From: Actinomyces sp. ph3
GTDB lineage: Bacteria > Actinomycetota > Actinomycetes > Actinomycetales > Actinomycetaceae
NCBI RefSeq assembly: GCF_000308055.1
Contig: NZ_CAGY01000001.1
Span: forward strand, 62,001-126,000
Length of the DNA: 64,000 nucleotides
Direction: 5' to 3'
Made by a program: the position numbers and the translations under genes. Position 1 is the first letter of the stretch, and every line of letters starts with the position of its first letter. Of the stretch, positions 22,665-30,114 are shown one piece after another. The notes under the pieces are model-generated. The model made no database searches, was not told the origin of the DNA, and saw nothing but the letters and a program-made list of their open reading frames with translations.

Positions 22665-24773
22665 GTGAGCCAAAGTCCTATTATTCGTGCGGAACACCCC
22701 TTCGAGGTTATTTCTGAATACACGCCATCCGGTGATCAGCCGAAGGCGATTCATGAGCTTGCAGAACGCCTGCGCGCGGGTGAACAAGACATTGTTCTTC
22801 TCGGTGCGACAGGAACCGGTAAGAGCGCAACGACTGCTTGGCTGATCGAAGAAGTTCAACGCCCAGCCTTGGTGCTTGAGCCCAATAAAACCTTGGCAGC
22901 GCAGCTAGCAGCGGAGTTTCGCCAGCTGCTGCCCAATAATGCAGTTGAATACTTCGTTTCCTATTACGACTACTACCAGCCCGAAGCCTACGTCCCTCAA
23001 ACCGATACCTTTATTGAGAAGGATTCATCGATCAACGATGAAGTTGAGAGACTGCGCCATAGCGCAACAAACTCACTATTAACGCGTCGAGATACGGTCG
23101 TTGTTTCCTCTGTTTCATGTATCTATGGTTTGGGTACGCCTGAAGAGTATGTTGCACGGATGATCGAGCTGAGTCGCGGAATGTGCATTGAGCGCGATGA
23201 TCTCCTCCGCGCCTTCATCGGTATGCAGTACACGCGGAACGATATCGGATTTACACGCGGAACCTTTAGGGTTCGTGGAGACACGATCGAGATCATTCCG
23301 GTGTACGAGGAACTGGCAATCCGGATTGAAATGTTCGGCGATGAAATCGATTCCTTGGCAGTACTCCATCCCGTGACGGGGAATGTGATCGAGGAAGTCG
23401 ATCATGTCTACCTCTTCCCGGCATCACACTATGTTGCCGGCGAGGAACGAATGAAACGCGCGATCGCCTCTATCGAGGAAGAACTCGAAGAGCGCCTCGA
23501 ATGGTTTGAATCCCAAGGAAAACTGCTTGAGGCCCAACGTCTTCGGATGCGAACAACCTACGACCTCGAAATGCTCAAGGAAATAGGCACGTGTGCGGGA
23601 GTTGAAAACTATTCGCGTCATATTGATGGACGTGGCCCGGGTACACCTCCGAATACTCTGCTTGATTATTTCCCTGATGATTTTGTTCTGGTCATCGATG
23701 AATCCCACGTGACGGTTCCGCAAATTGGGGCGATGTTCGAGGGTGACATGTCCCGAAAGCGCACCTTGGTGGATTATGGTTTCCGCCTCCCTTCGGCGAT
23801 GGATAATCGTCCACTGAAATGGGATGAGTTTACGCAGCGTATTGGTCAGACCGTCTATCTTTCGGCAACTCCCGGGCAGTATGAACTGGATCGTTCTGAT
23901 GGTGTCGTCGAACAGATCATTCGTCCGACTGGCCTTGTGGATCCCAAAGTTATTGTTAAACCGACTCAAGGTCAGGTTGATGACTTGCTCGAGCAGATCC
24001 AAGAGCGCACCCAGCGTGACGAGCGTGTTTTGGTCACAACTCTCACCAAGAAGATGGCTGAAGATCTGACAACTTACTTGGGTGAAAGGGGAGTGAAGGT
24101 CGAATACCTGCACTCTGATGTCGACACCTTAAGGCGCGTTGAATTACTACGTGAACTTCGCCTTGGAGTCTTTGACGTTTTAGTAGGTATTAACCTGCTT
24201 CGTGAGGGGTTGGACCTGCCCGAAGTCTCACTCGTGTCAATTTTGGATGCCGATAAAGAAGGATTCCTACGCTCAACCCGATCGCTCATTCAGACTATTG
24301 GACGAGCCGCACGTAATGTTTCGGGTGAAGTGCATATGTACGCCGATAACATCACTGACTCGATGCGCGCAGCAATAGACGAAACCGAGCGACGCCGTGA
24401 GATCCAGCTGACCTATAACCGTGAGCACGGGATTGATCCCAAACCACTGCGAAAGAAGATCGCAGACGTCACCGACATGCTGGCTCGCGAAGAGGTCGAT
24501 ACTGCGCAGCTCCTCGAAGGCGGATACCGTCGCGAGCGGCCGGCTACAGATATCCGCGCAGATGCGATGGCCTCGGAGGCTATTGAGGATGTGCCGAGGA
24601 GCCGAGAAGAACTTGCCAACATGGCACAAAATGACCTTGAGGATCTTATTGCCCAGTTGAGTTCTCGAATGATGGAAGCCGCAGAGAACCTCCAGTTTGA
24701 GCTTGCTGCTCGCCTACGTGATGAGCTCGCTGAACTTAAGAAAGAGCTTCGTGCAATGAAAGCTGCAAACTAA
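22665..24773 (+). CDS. uvrB: Excinuclease ABC subunit B
   Basis: A 702-residue helicase-like subunit of nucleotide excision repair that verifies damage and loads UvrC. Walker A is [10 protein letters not shown] (residues 48-57). The beta-hairpin region is [20 protein letters not shown]. Helicase motifs follow ([39 protein letters not shown]). The C-terminal UVR domain, [20 protein letters not shown], contacts UvrC. The GTG start fits a -10 box at leaderless spacing. Together with uvrA, uvrC and polA, the window carries a whole excision-repair set. Confidence 0.97.
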
Positions 24774-24854: not shown

Positions 24855-25607
24855 GTGTCTACGATGGCGCATACGCAAGCGCGTCCCGTTCCTTTTGCCA
24901 AACGCGCCCTTGCTTGGTCTGCGCACCTCTTCACACTCACCGGTGTGCTGTGGGCGTCTTTGGCGACAATTGCTCTTTACGAGGGACATATCCGCCAGAT
25001 GTGGATGTGGTTGGGAATCGCGCTTCTTGTTGATGCAGTTGACGGGAGTTTTGCGCGTGCTGTTCGCGTCACTGAATACGCTCCCGGTTTTGACGGAGCG
25101 ACTTTGGACAATATTGTCGACTACCTGACCTGGACCTTCATTCCGGCGCTGTTCATGGTCTTCTACCTGCCGTTTGGATCCCGCGGGCTAGGCATCGTCG
25201 CTGCCTTAATTGTGTGCCTCTCCTCAATGTTTTGTTATTGCAATGTCTCATTGAAGACACCAGACCACTACTTCATGGGTTTTCCCGCGGCATGGAATGT
25301 GGTTGCTGCAATTATGTGGATTTTCCAAACCGGCGCTCTTTTTAACTTCATTGCGACCGTAATTTTGGCAATCCTTACGGTTGCCCCGATTGCTTTTGTC
25401 CACCCCTTCAGGGTCGGTCGTTTGCGTGTGCTTAACATCGTCGCGGCACTGGTATGGGTTGCGGCAACGGCTGTGCTTGTCGCATACGCACCCCTGCGCC
25501 CATTTATCCTCACGGGTATTTGGTGGGTTGCGGGGATCTGGATTCTTGTCGTGAGCGCTGTGCGTTCGATTCAGGGAATTCCTCAAGAATTTCGTGACGC
25601 AGAGTAA
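24855..25607 (+). CDS. pcs: CDP-alcohol phosphatidyltransferase, phosphatidylcholine synthase-like
   Basis: A 250-residue membrane enzyme with about eight transmembrane helices. The CDP-alcohol phosphotransferase motif is present as DAVDGSFARA...PGFDGATLDNIVDYLTW. The spacing, the Pro before GFDGA, the IVDYLTW extension and the later CYCNVSLKTPDHYFMGFPAAWNVV block resemble bacterial phosphatidylcholine synthase (Pcs, condensing CDP-diacylglycerol with choline), not phosphatidylglycerolphosphate or phosphatidylinositol synthases. I call it Pcs-like by inference. GGGAG is 6 nt before GTG 24855; ATG 24864 is an alternative. Its 3' end overlaps the convergent unknown gene by 25 nt. Confidence 0.8.
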   Translation: MSTMAHTQARPVPFAKRALAWSAHLFTLTGVLWASLATIALYEGHIRQMWMWLGIALLVDAVDGSFARAVRVTEYAPGFDGATLDNIVDYLTWTFIPALFMVFYLPFGSRGLGIVAALIVCLSSMFCYCNVSLKTPDHYFMGFPAAWNVVAAIMWIFQTGALFNFIATVILAILTVAPIAFVHPFRVGRLRVLNIVAALVWVAATAVLVAYAPLRPFILTGIWWVAGIWILVVSAVRSIQGIPQEFRDAE

Positions 25608-26497
25608 CGCTTGACAAGGCGCGTGTTCTGAATCCCGCGCCAAACCTCGGTGGCAAGAGATGCCGCAATCATGAGGCCCACGATGATAATGACCGAACCT
25701 GGGTATCCGCGTCCGTGTACCCAGAAATAAACGTAGGGTGCCATGAAGGTTGTCAATGCGACAATTGCACCGCTGTAACGTTCCAATGGCCTCGATGCTG
25801 TCAACATCGCGAGAATTCCCCAGGTGTAGGGGATTGCGGTCAGTACATCGATTCCCCACAAGACCACCACAGAGCCGTGGAATTGCGGGACAAAAACGAC
25901 TGGAAGTGCCCGAAGTGAGGAGTACACGAAGACTACTGCGTACACCCAGAAACGTGGGTCTTTGAGAATTCGTGTGATCAGGGAACGTTTAAAAACCTTT
26001 ACCCCCGCTGCCTCAATTTGATGGGCGAGGCTGTGTGGGGTTCGTGTTGCATTCATGCCTCCTAATGCCGCCCTGAAGCTTGCATCGGGGAGTAGCTGAT
26101 GAACAACGTTACTGACCCGTAGCCCGAAGACAGTCTGCGTCTCAGAGTGCTGCGCACCGACGTTGACGAAGAGGTCGAATAGCGGACCCGCGAGTTCCTT
26201 CAGTTGCTCAGTGTCAATAGGCCCAATCAACCAGATCAAAGCGCGGTGCTCTAAAGCATCACGTACTTCAGAGTAAAAATCATCGGTTGTTGACAGTGTC
26301 TGTGGTGTGAGTTCACGAACCTCACGCCGTCCCAATTCAGCAAGTCTGGAAACGCCGGCAGTGTGCGCGAGTTTTGTTGTATCAAAAGCACAGGCTTGGA
26401 CGACTGGCAGTTCAAAAGGTGCCTGAGTTGACCCGAAAAGGGTCTCCTTTAGGCGACGCAGTCGGGACACTTGGGCTGCACGATTTTGAACACTCAC
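25583..26497 (-). CDS. Hypothetical membrane protein with N-terminal soluble domain
   Basis: I do not recognise this 304-residue protein. Residues 1-180 are predicted soluble, with a basic N-terminus (SRLRRLKETLFG) and a region around FYSEVRDALEHRALIWLIGPI. Four membrane helices follow at about 183-203, 209-231, 242-261 and 267-285, then a basic tail. The layout suggests a cytoplasmic domain held at the membrane. It converges on the PC-synthase-like gene with a 25-nt overlap, and diverges from the riboswitch-controlled terC operon, sharing a 91-nt gap. No link to either neighbour can be shown. Confidence 0.75.
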   Translation of the reverse strand: MSVQNRAAQVSRLRRLKETLFGSTQAPFELPVVQACAFDTTKLAHTAGVSRLAELGRREVRELTPQTLSTTDDFYSEVRDALEHRALIWLIGPIDTEQLKELAGPLFDLFVNVGAQHSETQTVFGLRVSNVVHQLLPDASFRAALGGMNATRTPHSLAHQIEAAGVKVFKRSLITRILKDPRFWVYAVVFVYSSLRALPVVFVPQFHGSVVVLWGIDVLTAIPYTWGILAMLTASRPLERYSGAIVALTTFMAPYVYFWVHGRGYPGSVIIIVGLMIAASLATEVWRGIQNTRLVKRYSASRNS

Positions 26498-26588
26498 TCT
26501 GTTGAGTCTAAAGCACTTGCGTGTGAAGCTCTTAACGACTTGTGATCTGACAGAGAATGTGAGCGGAATCGTTTGTTACGCTAGTCGC

Positions 26589-26700
26589 GAGGGGAGTAAT
26601 CCCAAAAAGAGCACCATCGTCAACGCGGTATCTCCTAGATACCCGGTGTTGCTGCCCAATTTTGGGTGGGAAGAGACCTCAAGTCTCTGCCTGAAAGGTC
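26589..26700 (+). promoter_or_regulatory. yybP-ykoY (Mn2+-sensing) riboswitch controlling terC
   Basis: The leader has the hallmarks of this class: 5' GAGGGGAGTA (26589-26598), the internal ATCGTCAACGCGGT block, CCCGGTGTTGCTG, and 3' GAGACCTC (26673-26680), with P1 pairing GAGG (26589-26592) to CCTC (26677-26680). The aptamer ends at about 26680. Downstream, GACCT (26675-26679) can instead pair with AGGTC (26696-26700), which includes part of the terC ribosome-binding site AAAGG (26694-26698). Ligand-stabilised P1 would free the site, giving ON control by Mn2+, as described for E. coli alx. The class match is by eye. Confidence 0.85.
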
Positions 26701-26704
26701 ATTC

Positions 26705-27706
26705 GTGGACGTACATATCCTCGGCTGGATCGGCTTGGCCGTCGCTGTTATCGCCCTAATTTCCACTGACATCATTGGACACGTGCGTAAGCCCCATGCA
26801 CCTTCTATGAAAGAAGCAACAGCGTGGACATTGGGCTACGTTACTCTTGCGGTCATGTTTGGCCTAGCGATTTGGGCGATCTACGGGGCAACCTACGCCA
26901 TCCAGTTCTATAGCGGCTACATGATGGAGTGGTCACTTTCGCTGGACAACCTCTTCGTCTTCGTCATTATCATGGCGTCCTTCAAGGTGCCGAGGGAGTT
27001 TCAGCAGAAAGCACTTCTAGCTGGAATCATTCTTGCACTGATTTTTAGGGCATTTTTCATCATCGTCGGTGTCACCCTGGTCAATCGATTTACCTGGATG
27101 TTCTTCTTCTTCGGTGCATGGCTGCTGTGGACGGCATATTCACAGGCCCGCGAAGGCGCTTCCGGTGAAGAGGAAGAAGTTGGGGAAATTCAAGAGAATG
27201 CTTTTATCCGCTTCGTTCGACGCATTCTTCCTGTGACTGATGGATACATCGGAGACCGCTTCTTCTATCGCCATAATCGTCACACATCCATCACCCCCTT
27301 GTTCCTTGTCGTTCTGGCGCTTGGATCCGCGGATCTGATGTTTGCGCTCGACTCGATTCCTGCGATCCTTGGCCTCACTCAAGAGGAGTATTTGGTCTTT
27401 GCATGCAATGCTTTTGCATTGCTGGGGCTTCGACAGCTCTTCTTCCTTATCGATGCCCTTCTCGAAAAGCTTGTTTTCCTCAACTACGGACTTGCAGTGA
27501 TCTTGGGCTTCATTGGGGTGAAGCTGATTCTCCATGCACTCCACGAAAACTCATTGCCCTTCCTTAACGGTGGTGCACCCATTCATGGGATTCCGGAAAT
27601 CGGAATCCCGGTCTCACTTGCTGTCATTGCAGGGACACTCATCACGACAGTTCTTGCCTCGCTCATTTATTCGAAGCGCGATTCCTCGAGGAGTAACGGC
27701 CGATGA
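26705..27706 (+). CDS. TerC/Alx family membrane protein, probable Mn2+ exporter
   Basis: A 333-residue integral membrane protein with about nine helices. Family signatures include MEWSLSLDNLFVFVIIM and GSADLMFALDSIPAILGLTQ, whose acidic residues lie in the membrane and are thought to bind metal. I place the start at GTG 26705 (VDVHILGWIGLAVA), with AAAGG 6 nt upstream; a longer ORF beginning at 26666 lies inside the riboswitch aptamer and is not credible. The stop overlaps the start of the P-type ATPase (ATGA), so the two are co-translated. Alx and related TerC proteins export Mn2+; the riboswitch supports that role. Confidence 0.9.
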   Translation: MDVHILGWIGLAVAVIALISTDIIGHVRKPHAPSMKEATAWTLGYVTLAVMFGLAIWAIYGATYAIQFYSGYMMEWSLSLDNLFVFVIIMASFKVPREFQQKALLAGIILALIFRAFFIIVGVTLVNRFTWMFFFFGAWLLWTAYSQAREGASGEEEEVGEIQENAFIRFVRRILPVTDGYIGDRFFYRHNRHTSITPLFLVVLALGSADLMFALDSIPAILGLTQEEYLVFACNAFALLGLRQLFFLIDALLEKLVFLNYGLAVILGFIGVKLILHALHENSLPFLNGGAPIHGIPEIGIPVSLAVIAGTLITTVLASLIYSKRDSSRSNGR

Positions 27707-30114
27707 CCATTGCTGCACAAGCTCCTAACCCTGCTCAGGGACTTAGTGGATCCGAAGTAAAAATCCGCGAAGAACAAGGCAAGCTGAACATCACTAAGCT
27801 CCCTTCATCGCGATCGCTGGCATCGATTATCCGCGCAAATGTCTTAACGCTTTTTAATGCGATCTTGAGTATCGCAATGGTCATCGTGATCATCTTCGGG
27901 TCCTGGCAGGATGCTGTTTTCGGCGCGATCATGATCATCAACGCGGTTATTGGAATTTTTTCTGAGCTCCGTGCAAAGAAAACTTTGGATGATCTTGCAA
28001 TCGTTGACGCCCCACGGGCGAAGGTGCGACGCGATGGGCGTACCGAGCAGATCGACGTTCAACGCATTGTTCTTGACGATATTGTCGAGCTTTCACTCGG
28101 CGATCAAATCGCGGCTGACGGTGAGGTCCTAGAAGTTTCCGGTCTGGAAATCGACGAATCGATGCTGACTGGCGAATCTCGCCCGGTTCTTAAGCAGGTC
28201 GGCGATCGTGTCCTCGCTGGAACATCCGTCGTTTCCGGGTCTGGAGTAATGCATGTGCAAGCAGTAGGTTCGGACCTGTACGCGCAGGGTATTGCACGTC
28301 ATGCACGGACTTTCTCTCTTGCCACTTCGGAGATCCAACAGGGTATTAATAAGATTCTGCGTGTCATCTCGATCGCACTTCCTCCAATTATTCTTCTGAC
28401 GCTCTGGTCGCAAACACGGATTGCAGGAGGCGGCACTCCCTACGCGTGGCAACACGCATTGGTTCTTGCTGTTGCAAGTGTCGTCGGAATGATCCCGCAG
28501 GGATTGGTACTTCTCACCTCCATGAACTTCGCGATCGGTTCAGCAACTCTGGCGCGGAAAGGCGCTCTTGTCCAGGAGCTCCCTGCAGTTGAAGTCTTGG
28601 CTCGTGTTGATGCACTGTGCCTAGATAAAACCGGTACGCTCACAACCGGTGGGATTCGATTGCGCTCTTTGGAGATCCTTGATCGACAGCGAGAAGACGA
28701 GCTTTTCCGTGCGCTGTGGATGCTCAACGACGATGAGACAAATGCAACCGCGCGGGCGGTCAAAGACTATTTGCTCGATAGGGGAGAGCTTCCTCAAGTA
28801 GATACTGAAGCTTCGCGGACTATTCCCTTCTCCTCTGAACGTAAATGGGCAGCGTGGGTCACGCAAAGTGCATCAATTGTTATGGGCGCCCCTGAGATGC
28901 TCATTGATCACGTTGAAAACCTCGAAAGTCTTCGAGCTGATATTCGTTCTTATGCCAGTGAGGGCTTGAGAGTATTAGTTGTCGTTCGCTATGACGAGGC
29001 CATTGAAGACCAGACCCTTCCGGCAAATCCCTCTCCTCTCGCCCTCTTGGTTTTGGAAGAAGACTTGCGCGATGATGCAACCGAAACCCTCGCTTACTTC
29101 CGCCGCCAGGGTGTTCGTGTACGCATCATTTCGGGTGATAGTCCAACTACGGTTGCTGCGCTAGCCGCACAGGTCGGATTGCGTTCACCTAATGGTGACG
29201 CTCCTCATGCATTTGATGCTCGGGATCTCCCCGAGGACCCAACGTCTGCTGAGTTCCTCTCTATCGTTGAGGCAACAGATGTTTTTGGACGTGTTACACC
29301 CGAACAGAAACGTGCGTTGGTTAAGGCCCTGCAAACTCAGAAGCACTGTGTTGCCATGACGGGTGATGGTGTCAATGACGCTCTCGCACTTAAAGATGCT
29401 GATCTAGGCATCGCGATGGGGAATGGCGCAGCAGCAACTAAGGCTGTTTCACAGTTGGTTTTGGTTGATCAAAAGTTTTCGGTGCTTCCCAGTGTCTTGG
29501 CCGAGGGACGTCGCATCATGGCCAATATGGAACGTGTGTCATCGCTTTTCTTGGCAAAGACGACCTACGCGACACTATTCGTCATTCTTAGTGCAATTTT
29601 CGCGTGGCGTTATCCCTTCTTGCCGCGGCATTTTACGTATGTTGACACTCTGACTATTGGTGTTCCCGCGTTCTTCATTGCCTTAGGCCCCAACAATCGG
29701 CGTTATGTCCCAGGTTTCTTGTCGCGAACTTTGTCGCTGGCAATTCCGAGCGGCATCGTCCTGGGAGTTGCGGCTCTTGCTGTTTATTCTTCGGTCGGCA
29801 ACGGCACGGTACTCGGTTCTACCGCTGCCGCAATGACGGTTCTGATTGCAGGATTGTGGCTTTTGTCGATCACAGCGAGGCCGCTGGTACCGTGGCGCGT
29901 AGCCTTGATCTGCGCTATGGCTGTAGCCGGGGTTTTAGGTGTTCTCCTTCCCTTTGCGCGAGCCTTCTTTGCCTTCCAATGGCCCCCGGCCCCGCTGTGG
30001 CTGGCGATTATCGGATCAGGACTTGCTGCCGGCCTCGTGATCGAGGCATTCTCGCGGGTGCTCTACATGGGTAAGCTTCGCGAAGCTGAGTCCGAAGGAC
30101 ATTCCATAGACTAA
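27703..30114 (+). CDS. Cation-transporting P-type ATPase (Mn2+/Ca2+ efflux candidate)
   Basis: An 803-residue P-type ATPase. Actuator motif TGES at 156-159, membrane metal-site motif GMIPQGLVLL (PQGL at 265-268), phosphorylation Asp308 in DKTGTLT, and the hinge GDGVNDALALKDADLGIAMG near 553-572. There is no heavy-metal CPx motif and no N-terminal metal-binding domain. It resembles the CtpE/pneumococcal MgtA-like group of Ca2+/Mn2+ pumps. Its start overlaps the terC stop, putting it under the same Mn2+ riboswitch. The pneumococcal pump is likewise riboswitch-controlled, which supports metal export here. Substrate is inferred. Confidence 0.88.
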   Translation: MTIAAQAPNPAQGLSGSEVKIREEQGKLNITKLPSSRSLASIIRANVLTLFNAILSIAMVIVIIFGSWQDAVFGAIMIINAVIGIFSELRAKKTLDDLAIVDAPRAKVRRDGRTEQIDVQRIVLDDIVELSLGDQIAADGEVLEVSGLEIDESMLTGESRPVLKQVGDRVLAGTSVVSGSGVMHVQAVGSDLYAQGIARHARTFSLATSEIQQGINKILRVISIALPPIILLTLWSQTRIAGGGTPYAWQHALVLAVASVVGMIPQGLVLLTSMNFAIGSATLARKGALVQELPAVEVLARVDALCLDKTGTLTTGGIRLRSLEILDRQREDELFRALWMLNDDETNATARAVKDYLLDRGELPQVDTEASRTIPFSSERKWAAWVTQSASIVMGAPEMLIDHVENLESLRADIRSYASEGLRVLVVVRYDEAIEDQTLPANPSPLALLVLEEDLRDDATETLAYFRRQGVRVRIISGDSPTTVAALAAQVGLRSPNGDAPHAFDARDLPEDPTSAEFLSIVEATDVFGRVTPEQKRALVKALQTQKHCVAMTGDGVNDALALKDADLGIAMGNGAAATKAVSQLVLVDQKFSVLPSVLAEGRRIMANMERVSSLFLAKTTYATLFVILSAIFAWRYPFLPRHFTYVDTLTIGVPAFFIALGPNNRRYVPGFLSRTLSLAIPSGIVLGVAALAVYSSVGNGTVLGSTAAAMTVLIAGLWLLSITARPLVPWRVALICAMAVAGVLGVLLPFARAFFAFQWPPAPLWLAIIGSGLAAGLVIEAFSRVLYMGKLREAESEGHSID

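Follow-up and report, generated by a model that had tools for sequence, protein, structure and literature searches.

The leader that precedes a terC gene in a 64,000-nucleotide (nt) stretch of Actinomyces sp. ph3 DNA (contig NZ_CAGY01000001.1, positions 62,001 to 126,000; hereafter the window) is probably a Mn2+-sensing riboswitch of the yybP-ykoY class, which would act as a translational ON switch and has a compact form without helix P2. By sequence comparison, the leader has a conserved fold, invariant L1 and L3 elements, no P2, a recurrent gene context and a P1 3' strand complementary to the Shine-Dalgarno region. The leader, terC and an overlapping P-type ATPase gene, all named in a preliminary description of this DNA, were recovered at the same positions. 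The terC stop and the ATPase start share 27703-27706, which confirms the ATGA overlap described there.

The leader starts at 26589 and reads GAGGGGAGUA...UCGUCA...CCGG...GGGAAGAGACCUC. A homologous leader recurs at the equivalent position 5' of terC in relatives from the same family (Actinomycetaceae). A plain sequence pattern was present in 33/200 family genomes, chance matches in unrelated genes included; it was discarded as evidence and used as a seed only. A covariance model (R1) was built from 16 family leaders, all drawn from the 200 genomes scanned. At E ≤ 0.05, R1 matched 184 of these genomes, which represent 33 of the 36 genera; there was one match in 174 genomes and there were two in 10. 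In the window's own genome, whose leader was in the model, a single match was obtained (E 4.5e-20, 87.9 bits) at G000:C10:88579-88685, which corresponds to 26579-26685 of the window. A refined model (R2) was then made from 50 family matches. Because R2 was built from family sequences only, the scan of the phylum (Actinomycetota) is an independent test: 61/296 phylum genomes were matched, or 60/295 without the window's own genome. In the order, R2 matched 155 of 248 genomes; these 248 include 20 from the family. The genome counts for R1, R2 and the Rfam model RF00080 (see below) are lower bounds, only the best first-pass candidates in each genome being scored.

Pairing was analysed in two alignments fitted to the model, A2 (49 distinct family rows) and A3 (53 rows, of which 43 lie outside the family). 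In A2, 94.7% of the cells were paired and two-sided changes were found in 16/23 pairs; the values for A3 were 94.6% and 21/23. These pairing measures were equalled in 0/500 shuffles, and slid structures were at most 53.7% paired. In the first alignment, made with MAFFT and free of structure, 81.8% of the cells were paired with 14 two-sided pairs (0/500 shuffles). Helix P1, helix P3 with the L3 internal loop and helix P4 of the yybP-ykoY class are thus present by covariation. The ion-binding core of the class, i.e. L1 GGGGAGUA plus the L3 adenosine, is present as well, and both L1 GGGAGUA and this adenosine are invariant in 103/103 rows (101 distinct). In crystal structures of the class, the L3 adenosine is reported to contact Mn2+ via N7 (PMC6754395). 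Judged by motif, A26622 of the window would correspond to this adenosine (A41 in Lactococcus lactis, A48 in Xanthomonas oryzae).

The canonical class is described as a four-way junction in which P2 is stacked on P1 (PMC11087558). The leader has neither P2 nor the four-way junction. The linker between P1.2 and P3 is 4-9 nt long in the 103 rows, which is too short for a canonical-type P2 hairpin. The L1-L3 spacing, counted with a regular expression, is 15-22 nt in 97/103 rows; among the other rows the count is 3, 4 or 11 in five, taken as early matches, and one gives no count. In canonical four-way actinobacterial loci matched by RF00080, the spacing is 23-37 nt in 14/15, and the value of 6 in L156 was taken as a chance early match.

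The nearest match within 1.5 kb downstream of the switch is TerC in 88/103 rows and a P-type ATPase in 8/103. All eight ATPase rows are from outside the family, and two of the 103 downstream stretches were too short for a gene call. Six long ATPases behind the switch outside the family are all SERCA-type (PEGLPAV in transmembrane segment 4 (TM4), N..D in TM6). They are encoded by the first gene in five loci (L221, L224, L227, L228 and L230) and after an M50-type protease gene in L229. That SERCA-type pumps also stand behind similar switches speaks for a common manganese (or calcium) theme. One locus (L108:1501-2772) has two switch copies, each followed by its own terC. In L119 and L138, which belong to one family, the first long frame after the switch encodes a protein of about 290 amino acids (aa); the L119 one is without Pfam match. 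An M50 protease with a CBS domain follows the switch in L129 (by Pfam), and one that looks alike by eye follows it in L146; in L140 the switch is followed by a Na/Ca exchanger. This protease and this exchanger are possible new manganese-regulated genes.

The window's terC product scores 350.8 bits against TIGR03718 (R_switched_Alx; cut-off 246.4) and 158.7 bits against PF03741, and belongs to the TerC/Alx family. The likelier start of terC is GTG 26705, located 6 nt 3' of the Shine-Dalgarno-like AAAGG. GTG 26666 was judged less likely as it lies inside the aptamer. The complementarity between P1 and the Shine-Dalgarno region, and the fact that no terminator-like site was found on the + strand in the leader, point to translational control that would be ON with ligand. 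In the proposed mechanism, GACCU would pair with AGGUC when Mn2+ is lacking and the terC ribosome-binding site would be hidden. Mn2+ bound between L1 and L3, at A26622, would dock both legs and stabilise P1 (GAGG/CCUC). The stabilised P1 would withdraw CCU from the Shine-Dalgarno sequence and terC would be translated. Translation of the ATPase would be coupled to that of terC through the ATGA overlap. TerC would then reduce cytosolic Mn2+ or pass Mn2+ to exported enzymes. The ATPase would most likely join TerC in Mn2+ handling.

The complementarity is not confined to the window. The P1 3' strand of many relatives runs on as CCUCCGGU, the complement of a ribosome-binding region, e.g. ACCGGAGG; the GACCU/AGGUC pair itself is found in L005 and L006. 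When only helices starting in the P1 strand were considered, the mean was 19.8 for true pairs vs 14.7 (standard deviation 0.39) for permuted ones (0/5000). This test was performed on 88/103 rows, the others being without the motif, without 45 nt downstream or duplicates. The restriction to the P1 strand was chosen after the outcome of an unrestricted search had been seen. As the rows are related, the permutation figure is no clean probability.

Several results weigh against this reading. The first is given by Rfam. At its gathering score RF00080 matches nothing in the window, and between 26480 and 26780 it matches nothing even at E ≤ 10. The leader does not belong to RF00080 as defined by scores of at least 45 bits. 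The preliminary description had staked its finding on a covariance-model match of RF00080 at the leader, and by that yardstick the finding would be refuted. Across the window's own genome, RF00080 gave only two matches at E ≤ 10 (8.6 and 7.1 bits), both on another contig. None of 16 related leader loci, one being the window's own, was matched at E ≤ 10. RF00080 matched four of 200 family genomes at E ≤ 0.05, with 0/200 above cut-off, and 13 of 296 phylum genomes at E ≤ 0.01, with one above cut-off. The 45-bit cut-off is strict, since Escherichia coli mntP itself scores 41.6 bits in the region supplied. The E. coli alx leader (L163:3368-3503) has no RF00080 match at E ≤ 0.1 with Rfam 15. Rfam, which misses both the compact form and alx, was thus rejected as the sole test; its failure here is explained by the low scores that the model gives to the P2-less form. 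A yybP-ykoY-type leader in front of terC, as first proposed, is therefore upheld by the comparative evidence and not by RF00080. The R2 and RF00080 phylum lists share one genome (G540), with matches on different contigs. With filters off, R2 weakly matches several RF00080-type loci (13-29 bits), so the 3/61 phylum genomes in which the best R2 score is below 32 bits could have the four-way form.

The other points on this side concern folding, gene context and the ATPase. Sliding the structure by +1 on the MAFFT alignment also gave 14 two-sided pairs, because some rows are displaced by one column, but with 59.0% of cells paired vs 81.8%. The leader alone folds modestly better than shuffles (z -2.24; 6/200 as good). 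The P1 of the window has 4 base pairs (bp) only and the anti-Shine-Dalgarno helix 5 bp. Folding energies were -47.6 kcal/mol when free, -43.4 with the OFF state forced and -39.8 with the ON state forced. The free minimum contains neither P1 nor the GACCU/AGGUC pair, so folding alone is no proof of a switch, and single-sequence folding was not used as arbiter since it does not settle the question. When the helix search was left unrestricted, a different helix, within coding sequence, came out best for the window, and the observed median was reached by 22% of mismatched pairs; this search was set aside as a test because chance helices are mixed in. In five of the 103 rows, the gene that follows encodes a protein other than TerC or a P-type ATPase. 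Three family loci with adjacent terC and ATPase (L293-L295) gave no R2 match in the stretch fetched; there the switch seems lost or too diverged. Finally, the window's ATPase is without the acidic TM4 and TM6 pattern of SERCA-type pumps. Its TM4 reads IPQGL, with Gln in place of Glu, and in TM6 an Asp stands at the SERCA-type N position (likewise in 4/10 operon copies) and a Gly at the D position.

The ATPase has the P-type core (TGES, DKTGT). TIGR01494 (257.4 bits), a general model of P-type ATPases, is the only one that it passes, and PF00122/PF00702 were matched. The MgtA and SERCA equivalogs were not reached (TIGR01524, 190.9 bits vs 610.8; TIGR01116, 218.1 vs 703.4), and PMR1 was far below as well. 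These scores, the Gln at the TM4 Glu position and the lack of the TM6 N..D pattern leave the manganese exporter of the preliminary description without sequence support. The protein groups with copies that have PEGL, apart from the SERCA-type rows, with Q replacing E. From its TM4 motif, we provisionally take it to be CtpE-type (P-type ATPase family 23). Among solved structures, its best matches are Ca2+ pumps; no TerC relative was found among them at E ≤ 0.1. The nearest ATPase relative among six named loci is that of Trueperella pyogenes, 97% identical (the window's own record was possibly excluded). The window's genome (1.86 Mb) contains three P-type ATPase matches, the operon copy included, and one Nramp gene above cut-off.

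Linkage of the ATPase to the switch was counted in the family. Among the matches listed (149 of the 184 family genomes), 68/149 have the ATPase on the strand of the switch and no more than 4 kb downstream of it, 10/149 have it directly upstream of the switch (33-119 nt) and 38/149 elsewhere; it was not found at E ≤ 1e-120 in 33/149. All 32 matches listed for the window's genus have the downstream order. Downstream linkage was found in at least five genera. A tandem terC-terC-ATPase arrangement was also found. The proposal that both exporter types stand under one switch is thus borne out as to gene order, in at least 68 of the 149 listed, and not as to the ATPase being an Mn exporter. For TerC, family and context speak for a manganese role; for the ATPase such a role is hypothetical.

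The TM4 residue was compared in 36 family copies of the ATPase, the window's included (138/200 genomes have one, E ≤ 1e-120), and in 29 phylum copies (103/296, E ≤ 1e-90). Q was found in 19/19 copies directly behind terC (three of these loci being without R2 match), in 3/3 directly upstream of the switch and in 2/2 near copies about 4 kb beyond terC. All copies examined beside terC or the switch thus have PQGL (22/22). The 12 unlinked family copies have E in 11 and Q in one (G075); a separate check of two of the E copies confirmed that neither terC nor the switch lies within about 6 kb. The phylum copies have E in 24, Q in four and L in one. A tree made by a quick method unites all 25 family Q copies in a single clade (support 100) that excludes the family E copies, so the association of Q with linkage does not represent many independent events. 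Family f41 (L286-L289) has four PQGL copies and gave no terC, R2 or RF00080 match in the stretches fetched. These copies look like a second, separate origin of Q, which does not, therefore, require the switch. That Gln favours Mn2+ is a hypothesis only.

Four other explanations were considered; they are partly compatible, and their probabilities need not add up to one. It is possible, though less likely than not, that TerC is a metal chaperone for secreted enzymes and not an overflow exporter, the ATPase supplying or recovering Ca2+ or Mn2+ at the envelope. TerC proteins of Bacillus subtilis are reported to metalate exoenzymes, one of them, MeeY, being under a Mn riboswitch, but MeeF and MeeY have Mn efflux activity too (PMC10550928). 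In Vibrio parahaemolyticus, deletion of a terC tied to the same riboswitch class is reported to raise cell Mn (PMC13274385), which opposes the chaperone view, while the report of CtpE as a Ca2+ uptake pump in Mycobacterium smegmatis (PMC5615198) favours it. The same report would fit an ordinary CtpE Ca2+ importer placed next to terC by chance and with no functional link, as would the ATPases located directly upstream of the switch in 10 and elsewhere in 38 among the matches listed. This seems rather unlikely, given that all 25 family PQGL copies form one clade with support 100, apart from the unlinked PEGL copies, and that 24 of the 25 adjoin terC or the switch or lie about 4 kb away at most, that downstream linkage extends to at least five genera and that the two genes overlap by ATGA in the window.

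We regard it as improbable that the P2-less scaffold has shifted to another divalent ion (e.g. Ca2+) or mainly to pH, with an operon handling that ion. A review deems altered ion specificity likely in some common yybP variants (PMC7266159), alx is reported to respond to alkaline pH too (PMC9603457), and pumps of both CtpE and SERCA type, as well as a Na/Ca exchanger, were found behind the switch. Against this stand the Mn2+-contacting adenosine and the L1 core, invariant in 103/103 rows, and TerC as the commonest target (88/103). That the leader is no riboswitch, its resemblance being due to chance or to a ligand-free RNA, would agree with the missing Rfam match and is very improbable in view of the covariation, the invariant core and the recurrence before TerC across the phylum. 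The reading as a Mn2+-sensing translational switch is thus the one we retain. The features of the operon are listed in Table 1.

Table 1. Elements of the leader and of the operon, with positions in the window
Feature	Position	Strand	Evidence
P2-less (three-way junction) yybP-ykoY-type aptamer (putative)	26589..26680	+	Model match, covariation
P1 5' strand GAGG, pairs with CCUC 26677-26680	26589..26592	+	100% of cells paired in A2; GC/AU/CG exchanges in A3
L1 motif GGGGAGUA	26591..26598	+	GGGAGUA invariant in 103/103 rows of A2 and A3
P1.2 5' strand UCCC, pairs with GGGA 26668-26671	26600..26603	+	99% paired in A2; two-sided changes in A3
P3 5' strand GCACCA, pairs with UGUUGC 26647-26652, one C.U mismatch	26611..26616	+	Two-sided changes in 6/6 pairs in A2 and A3
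L3 loop UCGUCAACGCG	26617..26627	+	A invariant in 103/103 rows
P3 distal hairpin GUAUC/GAUAC	26628..26642	+	Two-sided changes in 4/4 pairs
P4 hairpin GCCCA/UGGGU	26654..26667	+	Two-sided changes in 4/5 pairs in A2, 5/5 in A3
GACCU, P1 3' strand, possible anti-Shine-Dalgarno	26675..26679	+	Complement of 26696-26700; similar in relatives
Shine-Dalgarno-like AAAGG, overlaps with AGGUC; would be hidden in the OFF state	26694..26700	+	Sequence; complementarity to the P1 3' strand
terC (TerC/Alx family metal homeostasis membrane protein)	26705..27706	+	TIGR03718, PF03741
P-type ATPase taken as CtpE-type, 803 aa, TM4 MIPQGLVLLT	27703..30114	+	TIGR01494, PF00122/PF00702, TM4, tree

The surroundings of the operon were also inspected. 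A scan 5' of the leader gave no promoter-like site, the number of sites not exceeding that in shuffles. Divergent from the leader is a 304-aa frame (25583-26497, - strand) without Pfam or NCBIfam match. A phosphatidylcholine-synthase-like gene lies near the operon at 24855-25607 (NF045887, 221.9 bits, under its cut-off of 300), and a 702-aa frame at 22665-24773 is UvrB-like by eye. uvrA is located 3' of the operon.

The apparent novelty lies in how widespread a P2-less Mn switch outside the reach of RF00080 is in Actinomycetota, and in the PQGL clade linked to it. No description of a P2-less yybP form was found in the open-access papers searched, which leave out most subscription papers. As a tentative suggestion, which we hold to be doubtful, the P2-less subtype may be the main Mn switch of Actinomycetota, overlooked because Rfam describes the four-way form, and in Actinomycetaceae it may control a CtpE-type pump in which the Glu-to-Gln change turned Ca2+ uptake into a Mn pump acting with TerC. 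If this is true, a common actinobacterial RNA sensor of manganese is mostly missed by RF00080 annotation (61/296 vs 13/296 phylum genomes, one of the latter above cut-off). It would raise the question of how the ion core docks without a fourth helix. The design would be a simple one, with a single strand serving both P1 and the anti-Shine-Dalgarno helix. It would also point to candidate manganese genes, and the change in the linked pump would allow a direct test of which ion pumps of the CtpE family carry and in which direction.

Parts of the system have known counterparts. The association of an actinobacterial terC with an RF00080 element is already known from Corynebacterium glutamicum, where the leader of cg2157 (terC), seen by RNA-seq, was annotated as RF00080 with an older model (49 bits; PMC3890552); the likeness to the window is by annotation. 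Two Mn exporters tied to this riboswitch class are likewise known from V. parahaemolyticus. One is TerC, as here, but the second is MneA and not a P-type ATPase (PMC13274385). A P-type ATPase under a Mn riboswitch, as in the window, is described in a review for MgtA of Streptococcus pneumoniae (PMC9331361); by its description, MgtA is set apart from the window's protein, presumed CtpE-type with PQGL. CtpE of M. smegmatis, a reported Ca2+ uptake pump whose operon is negatively regulated by Ca2+ (PMC5615198), resembles the window's ATPase by reported motif and length. It has 791 aa vs 803, and P-x-GL in TM4 is common to both, with VPEGL vs IPQGL.

On the RNA side, the canonical Mn2+ riboswitches of L. 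lactis, X. oryzae and E. coli mntP share with the leader the L1 and L3 ion-binding cores and P1, P3 and P4. The L1-L3 distance is 29 nt in mntP vs 15-22 nt in the compact leaders. The closest studied relative is E. coli alx, a Mn2+-activated riboswitch also responsive to alkaline pH (PMC9603457), which R2 matches at 32 bits. It stands before a TerC protein and shares with the leader L1 GGGGAGUA, L3 UCGUCA, CCGG, P3/P4 and GAGACCU. Its L1-L3 distance is 18 nt and, by reading of the sequence, it has no P2 hairpin, as in the window. It differs by a long P4 (a 32-nt insert in the R2 alignment) and by its next gene, which is sstT and not an ATPase gene. The compact form thus seems already present in an experimentally studied Mn2+ switch, which lowers the novelty of the window's leader and supports Mn2+ as its ligand.

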